A stretch of 64,000 bases of DNA from positions 62,001-126,000 of the forward strand of contig JABJJW010000001.1 of the NCBI GenBank assembly GCA_018660685.1, written 5' to 3'. Position numbers and translations under genes: made by a program. The notes under the pieces are model-generated. The model ran no database searches. It saw nothing but the letters and a program-made list of their open reading frames with translations, and was not told the origin of the DNA. Source of the stretch: Flavobacteriales bacterium. GTDB taxonomy: Bacteria; Bacteroidota; Bacteroidia; Flavobacteriales_G; Salibacteraceae. Below, in pieces: positions 9,032 through 11,142 of the stretch (position 1 is the first letter of the stretch; each line of letters starts with the position of its first letter).

Positions 9032-9176
9032 ATCGACCCAACCCTTCCAATTCTTCTTACGTGTAACCCGCAGAACGGAAGAAATTCCGGCTTTTGAGCA
9101 ATACAATGATCATTGAAAACCAAGGCAAAAGGGCCAAAAAGGCAACGCGGACCACTAAACTTGCGTATTTAGAAGC

Positions 9177-9725
9177 ATGCAAGCCGCACCTGAATTACTC
9201 GCACGCTGTCGAAAAAACGACCGCAAAGCGCACAATGAGCTATATGGCCATTGTTTCGGGTACCTTATGTCCATTTGTCTGAGATACTGCAACAATCGCG
9301 AAGACGCGGAATCGTTGCTAAATCAGGGCTTTCTTAAGATCGTTACTAAACTCGACAAGTACAATGAGGACGTTCCTTTTGGTTCCTGGATTTCCAGAAT
9401 CATGGTGAACACAATCATTGATGAGTTCAGACGAGATAAAAAGCGTCGAGAAAACATGTCGGGAGCTGAATTGGATGAAGATCGATCAACTGGTCGAGTG
9501 GATTACAACGAAGCAGCACAAAGACTGGAAGCTGAAGCATTAGAAAAGATGATTCAAAAGCTTCCGGATATGAGTAGAAAGGTTTTTAACCTGTATGCAA
9601 TTGAAGGATACACACATAAGGAAATTGGAGAGATGCTCGGAATCAGCGATGGTACCAGTAAGTGGCATGTCTCATTTGCTAGAAAGAACCTTCAAGGGAT
9701 GATAAAAACGGCAATGAAAAAATGA
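9177..9725 (+). CDS. ECF RNA polymerase sigma factor
   Basis: 182 aa. Region 2 runs from AHNELYGHCFGYLMSICLRY to FGSWISRIMVNTIIDEFRRD. Region 4 is LPDMSRKVFNLYAIEGYTHK followed by EIGEMLGISDGTSKWHVSFA. The ATG at 9177 is the only ATG after an in-frame TAA at 9156. The next gene, 16 bp downstream, encodes a membrane protein whose short N-terminus faces the cytosol, as expected for a sigma-binding partner. The target regulon is unknown. Confidence 0.92.
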   Translation: MQAAPELLARCRKNDRKAHNELYGHCFGYLMSICLRYCNNREDAESLLNQGFLKIVTKLDKYNEDVPFGSWISRIMVNTIIDEFRRDKKRRENMSGAELDEDRSTGRVDYNEAAQRLEAEALEKMIQKLPDMSRKVFNLYAIEGYTHKEIGEMLGISDGTSKWHVSFARKNLQGMIKTAMKK

Positions 9726-9741
9726 TGACGTTGACTCTACT

Positions 9742-11142
9742 ATGAGCGATTTCAACAACATAGACGATTTATTCAAGGGTAAGCTTCAAGGAAGAGAAGC
9801 AGCTTATTCTGCTGCTGCATGGAAAGGTGCGGAAGGTCTGTTGACAAAGCACTACAAGGCGCTGCTCATTAAGAAGATCCTACTCATTACCATTCCAACG
9901 CTCATTGCTGGAACAATTGGTCTTGCCGTCCTGTTTAATTCTACTGCTGAGACCAGTCAAAATTTGAATCAAGACAACACCGTCGTTGGAACATCTGCTA
10001 TCGATCAGACTGAATCTGAAGGTTCGGTTATCGAGAATGCCAGCATGGAACCAGCAACATTGACATCAAATGAAACTTCAATAACGTCTGAAACAATTGG
10101 AGCAGGATTACCTTCTGTTTCGAGTTCATCTGATGACGCAACTTCAGCTCAGCAAACTCCATCAACCGATAATGGCATCGTGGAAGTGGAAAATGAGATT
10201 GCAGATGCAACAGACCTAACAACGGATGCTCAAAACACAATCATTGAGACACCAGAAGACAATATTCAAGAAAGTACAACTGACCCCAACGTACCATTGC
10301 CTCCCGGATTCGCTGACCTTTTAAATGAAATGGCTTTAGATGAAGCTTCGTCTTCGGATGTAGGTTCAGCAGCAACATTGGATAATGTGCCGACGATGCC
10401 AATTGAGGAAGCGAATGCCCTTCTGAACACGGTTAATTCGGAAATGGGCATGATGCCCGGTTTTGATGTTTCTCAGATATCGAATTGGTCAGCCGGACTT
10501 GCGGATGAAAACAGAGCCAGCGAGAAACTCATGTCTAAAATCAGAAAGATTGAACTAATGGCCTCAGGAGGCGGATTGATCGCTTCTGGCATGAGAGGTA
10601 ACGGCTGGCAAGATGAAAAGGCATCTTTAGGATGGCACGCAGGAATCACTGTTCAGTATTTCATTAAGGAAAAGTGGTTTGCGCAAACGGGAGCTACTAT
10701 ACACCAACGAAGTGCAATCAATTCTAGACGCGTGGAATGGCCTCCATTTTATATTCTGCCGACAGATGTGAATGCCCCGATCAATTTGAGGTACATCGAC
10801 ATCCCTCTTCAAATGGGTTACCGACTTGGCGGAAGACATGAAGTCGCATTCGGACTCGCATTTGCTCCATTGTTGAGTTATACGAGAACCACAAACGTAC
10901 TGCCAACACAGGACGTTGCTAAATATTCCAAGGACGGGACATCACGAGAAGGCTTCGCCAACTTCGATGTGGCCGCATTGCTTAACTACAAGTATCAAGT
11001 TACCGAACGCATCGACTTGAAAGTAGAAGGCCGATTTGGAGCCTTTGATATAACGGACAACGCCTACTTTGGAACCGACATCGTTTACGATCGAAATCAT
11101 CAAGTGCGGCTTGGTGTGAGCTACCGAATCATTCGTCATTAA
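9742..11142 (+). CDS. Inner-membrane-anchored protein with C-terminal outer-membrane beta-barrel domain; putative anti-sigma partner
   Basis: 466 aa. Residues 1-40 (NIDDLFKGKLQGREAAYSAA, then WKGAEGLL) resemble the short cytosolic tip of Bacteroidota sigma-linked proteins. A membrane helix lies at about 43-66. A Ser/Thr/Glu-rich linker of about 190 residues follows. The last 200 residues alternate aromatic and glycine strands (GWHAGITVQYFIKEKWFAQT, IDIPLQMGYRLGG, VRLGVSYRI) like an OMP_b-brl/PorT barrel. The ECF sigma gene is immediately upstream. One polypeptide thus appears to span from the cytosol to the outer membrane. Anti-sigma function is inferred from order and topology. It overlaps the end of recJ by 14 bp. 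Confidence 0.75.
   Translation: MSDFNNIDDLFKGKLQGREAAYSAAAWKGAEGLLTKHYKALLIKKILLITIPTLIAGTIGLAVLFNSTAETSQNLNQDNTVVGTSAIDQTESEGSVIENASMEPATLTSNETSITSETIGAGLPSVSSSSDDATSAQQTPSTDNGIVEVENEIADATDLTTDAQNTIIETPEDNIQESTTDPNVPLPPGFADLLNEMALDEASSSDVGSAATLDNVPTMPIEEANALLNTVNSEMGMMPGFDVSQISNWSAGLADENRASEKLMSKIRKIELMASGGGLIASGMRGNGWQDEKASLGWHAGITVQYFIKEKWFAQTGATIHQRSAINSRRVEWPPFYILPTDVNAPINLRYIDIPLQMGYRLGGRHEVAFGLAFAPLLSYTRTTNVLPTQDVAKYSKDGTSREGFANFDVAALLNYKYQVTERIDLKVEGRFGAFDITDNAYFGTDIVYDRNHQVRLGVSYRIIRH

Follow-up and report, generated by a model that had tools for sequence, protein, structure and literature searches.

A putative Dma-like trans-envelope anti-sigma factor and its ECF sigma factor in a Flavobacteriales bacterium, with sprB-sprF as candidate target

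Introduction

Anti-sigma factors with domains reaching from the outer membrane to the cytosol, designated Dma1-3, have been described from Bacteroidota only. According to the accessible parts of that report, they are encoded beside ECF21 sigma factors, Dma1 and Dma2 repress Das1 and Das2 in Bacteroides thetaiotaomicron, and Dma3 has a sigma domain within its own chain (PMC13088901). Dma2 (BT1558) is packaged in outer-membrane vesicles, as stated in the available text of a further study (PMC11878027). A pair from Phocaeicola vulgatus (M0N98_03761/03760), known to us from excerpts, comprises an anti-sigma factor with a C-terminal outer-membrane barrel, disruption of which releases the regulon; impairment of this anti-sigma factor leads to longer O-antigen, the protein toxin BcpT induces the response, and a similar pair is present in B. 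fragilis (PMC9308784). The name ecfO-reo and a nigD regulon are given in the accessible part of PMC13114119. For the adhesin gene sprB, the available sections of work on Flavobacterium psychrophilum describe an operon (remFG-sprCDBF) under sigma-54 and an SM5 promoter and not under an ECF sigma factor, as well as an ECF motif at genes of the type IX secretion system (T9SS) (PMC9723704).

The window analysed here is a stretch of 64,000 nucleotides and part of a 2.58-Mb, 28-contig genome of a Flavobacteriales bacterium. A preliminary description, made from the sequence alone, had placed in it an ECF sigma factor followed by a partner thought to extend as a single chain from the cytosol to the outer membrane. 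The pair is a predicted new member of the Dma kind; it comes from a Flavobacteriales lineage, and relatives occur across Bacteroidota. The kind as such is already known, anti-sigma factors of this build having been published from Bacteroides and Phocaeicola in the text available to us (PMC13088901, PMC9308784).

Results

Sigma factor and neighbourhood

Both open reading frames (9177-9725 and 9742-11142, Table 1) were confirmed within the span given in the preliminary description. They are separate, lie in different frames and are 16 bp apart. NifU-like and Mrp/ApbC-like iron-sulphur genes are located upstream of the pair, and a convergent recJ overlaps the partner gene at its downstream end. 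The assignment of the 182-aa product to the ECF sigma factors was borne out by TIGR02937 (99.6 bits, cut-off 42.9) and by the Pfam models for regions 2 and 4 (Sigma70_r2 and Sigma70_r4_2), both above cut-off. With TIGR02985 it scored 83 bits, below the cut-off of 126.4; no ECF21 model was found in the libraries searched. The genome holds 13 Sigma70_r2 matches in total. The window sigma factor shares 69-78% identity with its counterparts in near relatives and 47-60% with more distant ones, the partner 17-33%. A sigma gene lies immediately 5' of the partner gene in all 30 homologous loci fetched, so that the pairing is not due to chance; gaps between the two genes range from -17 to +35 after trimming of the starts, and two of the partners, L027 and L028, were identified from their position.

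Table 1. Features of the sigma/partner locus and of further tip-encoding loci in the same genome
Feature	Position	Strand	Evidence
Distal ECF-type motif CCCAACC-N16-CGTG, candidate autoregulatory promoter	9037..9063	+	14/14 genus/near-genus loci
Proximal motif GCAACG-N15-GCGTA before start codon; possible second ECF-like promoter or operator, genus only	9142..9167	+	Full motif 13/14, GCAACG 14/14
ECF sigma factor, 182 aa	9177..9725	+	TIGR02937, Sigma70_r2, Sigma70_r4_2; 69-78% identical in near relatives
Dma-like trans-envelope anti-sigma factor (putative), 466 aa	9742..11142	+	ORF, Pfam, alignment, AlphaFold2
Residues 1-40, cytosolic tip, putative sigma-binding domain	9742..9861	+	Conservation, AlphaFold2, tip model
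Residues 41-66, single inner-membrane helix (predicted)	9862..9939	+	Hydropathy; helix 24-70 in model
Residues 67-265, disordered acidic periplasmic linker (predicted)	9940..10536	+	Low pLDDT, no conserved columns
Residues 266-466, 8-strand outer-membrane beta-barrel (predicted)	10537..11139	+	PF13568/PF13505, AlphaFold2, VIA Z 16-17
Second barrel pair	L032		PF13568 30.0 bits
ECF sigma factor and tip-TM-PKD-like protein with terminal T9SS type B sorting domain	L065 972-2748 = C4:119471-121247	-	TIGR04131 47.4 bits, cut-off 35
Sigma/tip pair, C-terminus resembling CHU_C sorting domain	L063 1704-3317, C23	-	25.2 bits, cut-off 27 (sub-threshold)

Anatomy of the partner protein

The tip consists of two helices (residues 4-17 and from 24 onward) and contains the motif IDxLFKxKL...AW, in which W27 is invariant among 31 aligned sequences. 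In the same alignment, 50%-majority columns make up 16 of 40 positions in the tip, none in the linker and 44 of 201 in the barrel. Hydropathy analysis found one hydrophobic segment (residues 40-67), and the N-terminus is presumably cytosolic. The region from about residue 66 to 265 has a net charge of -34 and consists to 67% of S, T, N, Q, D, E, G and P; with approximately 200 residues it is probably long enough to cross the periplasm. An AlphaFold2 model built from 54 sequences showed two helices (4-17 and 24-70), then a stretch of low confidence that begins at 71 and reaches to about 265, and finally eight main strands between 270 and 465, mostly with pLDDT >90 and weaker in the loops; the mean pLDDT of 69.6 is due to the linker. 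Residues 289-462 matched OMP_b-brl_2 (31.8 bits, cut-off 27) and OMP_b-brl (29.9 bits, cut-off 28.7). Among the top matches of the barrel in VIA-align (996 chains) were, beside a designed 8-strand barrel, OmpA (Z 16.9, rmsd 3.1, 169 residues aligned), NspA (Z 16.4, rmsd 2.8, 155 aligned) and OmpW (Z 16.0, rmsd 4.1, 168 aligned); Foldseek was concordant, with OmpA, Ail and OmpX.

The preliminary description had divided the partner into a 40-residue cytosolic tip, one inner-membrane helix, a flexible linker of 190 residues and a barrel-like C-terminal domain, and each of these parts was recovered: a conserved tip with two predicted helices, the single hydrophobic segment 40-67, a disordered and acidic linker of about 200 residues with low pLDDT, and a C-terminal domain which Pfam, AlphaFold2, Foldseek and VIA-align predict to be an outer-membrane-type 8-strand barrel and not a soluble beta fold. 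The structure model supports a single-chain topology from cytosol to outer membrane, in which the barrel is likely to be inserted in the outer membrane. No FecR domain was matched in the partner (Pfam, E<=1). Zinc-binding (ZAS) anti-sigma factors carry an HxxxCxxC motif in their cytosolic part; this motif is absent here, residues 1-40 being free of cysteine.

Contact between tip and sigma factor

That the tip binds the window sigma factor is suggested by the linkage in one operon, by the conservation of the tip and by the known Dma/Das pairs. A tip of about 40 residues suffices for a two-helix anti-sigma factor such as CnrY, and a CnrH-CnrY entry was found among the structural matches of the sigma factor. 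Sigma factor and tip were modelled as one chain, made from an in-frame relative (L083) by reading through the stop codon (TAA=G). In this model the sigma fold was confident and the tip helical, but the pTM was 0.44, a value which is not an interface score, and no direct sign of contact between the two was seen. The VIA matches listed for it end by model residue 193 and barely cover the tip (191-260); since those spanning both sigma domains had an rmsd of about 15-20, the arrangement of the two domains is unlike that in a solved complex. Two mixed alignments (A3 and A5), in which rows with the partner only had aligned onto the sigma factor, were discarded for that reason. Covariation was calculated from 104 of the 109 pairs assembled, the five others having no long C-terminus. 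The mean z with the sigma factor was 3.19 for the barrel vs 2.49 for tip and TM segment; the barrel covaries at least as strongly as the tip, and shared descent thus dominates the signal.

Relatives across Bacteroidota

Of 60 genomes taken from the own genus and beyond, 39, the own genome among them, contain a partner match (E<=0.001). A search with the sigma factor only gave 591 candidates, of which 80 named loci were kept, spanning Flavobacteriales, Saprospiraceae, Chitinophagales, Mucilaginibacter, Pedobacter, Pontibacter, Spirosoma and others; at least three of them (L083, L085 and L087) are contigs already used in model building. Named relatives with the pair include Phaeodactylibacter luteus, Brumimicrobium salinarum and Saprospira grandis (loci L092, L121 and L126). 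All but two of these loci (L091 and L112) have a downstream ORF, and 73 of the 78 ORFs contain a TM-like segment near the N-terminus. At E<0.01, the tip was recognised in 60, the barrel in 56 and both in 48 of the 78; the tip model had no match among 1004 other plus-strand frames, nor with any shuffled N-terminus over ten trials. Of 54 partners searched with Pfam (E<=0.001), 32 matched OMP_b-brl_2 and 12 matched OMP_b-brl. The phylum also contains relatives of 200-250 aa that consist of the barrel only, as well as tip partners of 237-263 aa in which no barrel was recognisable (L080-L082). In some partners the tip motif stands in tandem at the N-terminus, with two copies in L026 and L027, up to four in L099 and a repeat also in L119; such stacked tips look as if several sigma-binding units were placed in a row.

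Promoter motifs upstream of the sigma gene

Alignment of the 14 upstream regions from the genus and near-genus loci yielded two blocks sharing the core AAC-N17-CGT (Table 1). The distal motif has its sole exact match in the window at the position listed. Of 86 wider loci, 46 have its shorter form CAACC-N16-CGT in the 250 nt preceding the sigma gene (shuffled sequences: mean 0.15, maximum 2), which suggests autoregulation; the distal motif is probably the promoter of the sigma factor's own operon. The proximal pattern GCAACG-N15-GCGT was found in none of the 86 wider loci. With approximately 9 nt between the end of this block and the start codon of the sigma gene, a transcript from there would be leaderless or nearly so.

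Across 13 genomes of the genus, the exact distal motif occurred at 29 places (reversed-pattern control: 15); it stands upstream of the sigma operon at 13 of these, upstream of a single other orthologous gene at 9 and elsewhere at 7. Family-wide, 41 places in 19 of 35 genomes were obtained (reversed-pattern control: 27); among the 30 places read, no shared target was seen apart from sigma operons and, in G015, a genome from another genus, the SprB gene. The pattern AAC-N16-18-CGT was not found upstream of the two own-genome sigma genes whose partners have sorting domains (L063 and L065).

The sprB-sprF unit as candidate target

The other orthologous gene preceded by the distal motif encodes a T9SS-secreted adhesin with SprB repeats (approximately 3,900-4,600 residues) and is accompanied by sprF. 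The motif was found there in 9 of the 13 genus genomes, which are all those with the 5' end of sprB assembled. In G001 and G008 the sprB gene begins at a contig end, and in G007 and G012 no sprB ortholog was found at E<=1e-40, yet sigma factor, partner and promoter are kept. Where the whole unit could be read (eight genomes), 54-57 nt separate the end of the motif from the sprB start codon and an sprF-like gene follows after 7-18 bp; in the ninth genome, G010, the unit was read at its 5' end only. The adhesin of the own genome is 3880 aa long and has 32 SprB repeats; its T9SS type B sorting domain scores 71.4 bits with CHU_C and 52.4 bits with TIGR04131. The gene of a PorP/SprF protein (234.6 bits, cut-off 90.55) starts 11 bp behind the adhesin gene. 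The own genome also encodes SprA, the T9SS translocon (2489 bits), and has a single match to a site-2 protease (PF02163). In G015 the motif lies 63 nt before the gene of a 4738-aa protein with SprB repeats and CHU_C, with an sprF-like gene behind. Each sprB gene read has a TAAATTTG box a short distance ahead of its start codon (L234 830-870 and orthologs); the box resembles the TAnnTTTG of the Flavobacterium primary sigma factor.

At the sigma and sprB sites the -35 and -10 elements are kept, but the 16-nt spacers between them have diverged (mean pairwise identity 0.46 and 0.42, respectively), which argues for selection, though the genomes compared are related and not independent. From these motif positions, control of sprB-sprF by the sigma factor appears likely in this genus, although sigma-54 and an SM5 promoter serve the sprB operon of F. 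psychrophilum (PMC9723704). A limited literature search, covering parts of the sources, retrieved no report tying an anti-sigma factor of this kind to sprB.

Tip proteins elsewhere in the genome

The four own-genome sigma factors scoring best on the group model adjoin a tip protein, and the other sigma loci checked do not. In the loci checked the tip adjoined a sigma factor, also where the C-terminus was not a barrel. In one same-genome pair (L065) a T9SS type B sorting domain takes the place of the barrel, and the tip therefore appears to be modular. Relatives of the L065 partner were found near full length in at least 20 further genomes among the 60 searched, with a sigma factor of this group at 16 of 17 fetched L065-type loci. 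The L065 partner is an anti-sigma-like protein with the look of a secretion substrate; a search by titles and the beginnings of abstracts found no description of anti-sigma factors with T9SS sorting domains. A 359-aa frame (L031 1815-2894, C23:15814-16893), in which an ECF sigma factor truncated in region 4 is joined to an OMP_b-brl_2 barrel, was rejected as a Dma3-type fusion. It was taken as a deletion fusion or an assembly artefact because the region 4 match stops at 32 of 54 positions and no clear membrane segment is present.

Discussion

The pair probably consists of an ECF sigma factor and a cognate anti-sigma factor of the Dma kind that spans the envelope; once freed, the sigma factor would transcribe its own operon and, in this genus, sprB-sprF. 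The two-helix tip would hold the sigma factor at the inner membrane, which the partner would cross once, with the linker spanning the periplasm and the 8-strand barrel sitting in the outer membrane. The barrel may sense the outer membrane or the surface, e.g. a ligand, LPS or surface damage, or failed barrel assembly. A change in the outer membrane would, through pulling, misassembly or proteolysis, loosen the chain or cut it, and the freed sigma factor would then transcribe from CCCAACC-N16-CGTG its own operon and, in this genus, the genes of the giant SprB-type T9SS adhesin and SprF. Sequence and structure prediction show the two genes and their linkage, the topology and barrel fold, the conservation of the tip and the promoter motif in common, whereas binding and inhibition of the sigma factor by the partner, insertion of the barrel, the signal sensed and the control of sprB-sprF are inferred. 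The preliminary description had proposed that the state of the outer membrane could be passed straight to the sigma factor; of this proposal, topology and barrel held up, the binding of the sigma factor by the tip is deduced from linkage, conservation and the Dma/Das pairs, and the concept had already been published.

The partner might instead be an outer-membrane protein with an N-terminal anchor that is a target of the sigma factor or an envelope tether, the two genes being merely co-transcribed. Such a role would fit the barrel-only relatives in the phylum, a one-chain model with no direct sign of contact and a tip covariation with the sigma factor that is not above that of the barrel. It is nevertheless improbable, since the tip is the most conserved part of the protein (16 of 40 columns), adjoins a sigma factor in the loci checked even with non-barrel C-termini, and accompanies in the own genome precisely the four best-scoring sigma factors; published relatives, in the accessible text, act as anti-sigma factors (PMC13088901, PMC9308784). 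We consider it similarly improbable that the partner is an anti-sigma factor whose barrel stays periplasmic, or which is cut after export, and which senses periplasmic folding stress. One chain would have to serve as an inner-membrane protein and also pass the outer-membrane assembly machinery, which speaks for such a reading; however, the barrel closely matches inserted 8-strand barrels, the linker is probably long enough to span the periplasm, and BT1558 (Dma2) is reported, in the text available, from outer-membrane vesicles (PMC11878027).

That the CCCAACC-N16-CGTG motif before sprB is read by another ECF sigma factor, leaving the adhesin outside this regulon, is a more serious possibility, though still a rather unlikely one. 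The 13 Sigma70_r2 matches offer other candidates, and G007 and G012 keep the system without sprB. Against this, the motif tracks this sigma factor across the phylum (46 of 86 loci), both boxes are kept at both places between diverged spacers, and the related core was not found upstream of the L063 and L065 sigma genes.

More speculatively, and with some doubt on our side, the tip could be a plug-in module for holding sigma factors, mounted on outer-membrane barrels or on T9SS sorting domains; the barrel version would report the state of the outer membrane or surface to control the giant SprB/SprF adhesin, and the sorting-domain versions would report T9SS activity. If so, tip proteins would be a family of single-chain gauges for surface export and adhesion, and the tip on T9SS sorting domains would offer a way to ask whether cells sense secretion via a protein that is a substrate itself. 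The analysis carries the Dma kind beyond gut Bacteroides, into Flavobacteriales and further orders of Bacteroidota. A promoter sequence travelling with the sigma factor and the candidate target sprB-sprF are additions not found in the parts of the literature seen, and a response of adhesin genes to the state of the outer membrane becomes directly testable.

The window pair resembles Dma1/Das1 and Dma2/Das2, as far as their available descriptions go, in having an outer-membrane-to-cytosol anti-sigma factor beside a cognate ECF sigma factor; the partner is likened to Dma1-3 by described architecture and gene linkage, not by sequence. In the Dma3 type, by the same text, sigma and anti-sigma form one chain, whereas the window pair consists of two ORFs. 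With the P. vulgatus pair, in the portions accessible, it shares a large anti-sigma factor with an inner-membrane segment and a C-terminal outer-membrane barrel, encoded downstream of the sigma factor. The regulon of the P. vulgatus and B. fragilis pairs is described in these portions as lengthening O-antigen or answering oxidative stress, and their hosts are gut anaerobes; ecfO-reo is presumably this B. fragilis pair similar to that of P. vulgatus. In Fec-type signalling (FecI-FecR-FecA), the state of the outer membrane controls an ECF sigma factor via a separate TonB-dependent receptor and FecR; the window pair would likewise link outer-membrane state to an ECF sigma factor, but in its partner no FecR domain was matched. 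With remFG-sprCDBF of F. psychrophilum, as described in the available sections, sprB-sprF is common, but there the operon is under sigma-54 and an SM5 promoter and here an ECF-type promoter stands before it. The outputs described for Dma/Das in the accessible text are vesiculation and polysaccharide loci, whereas the predicted output of the window pair is an SprB-type adhesin together with autoregulation.
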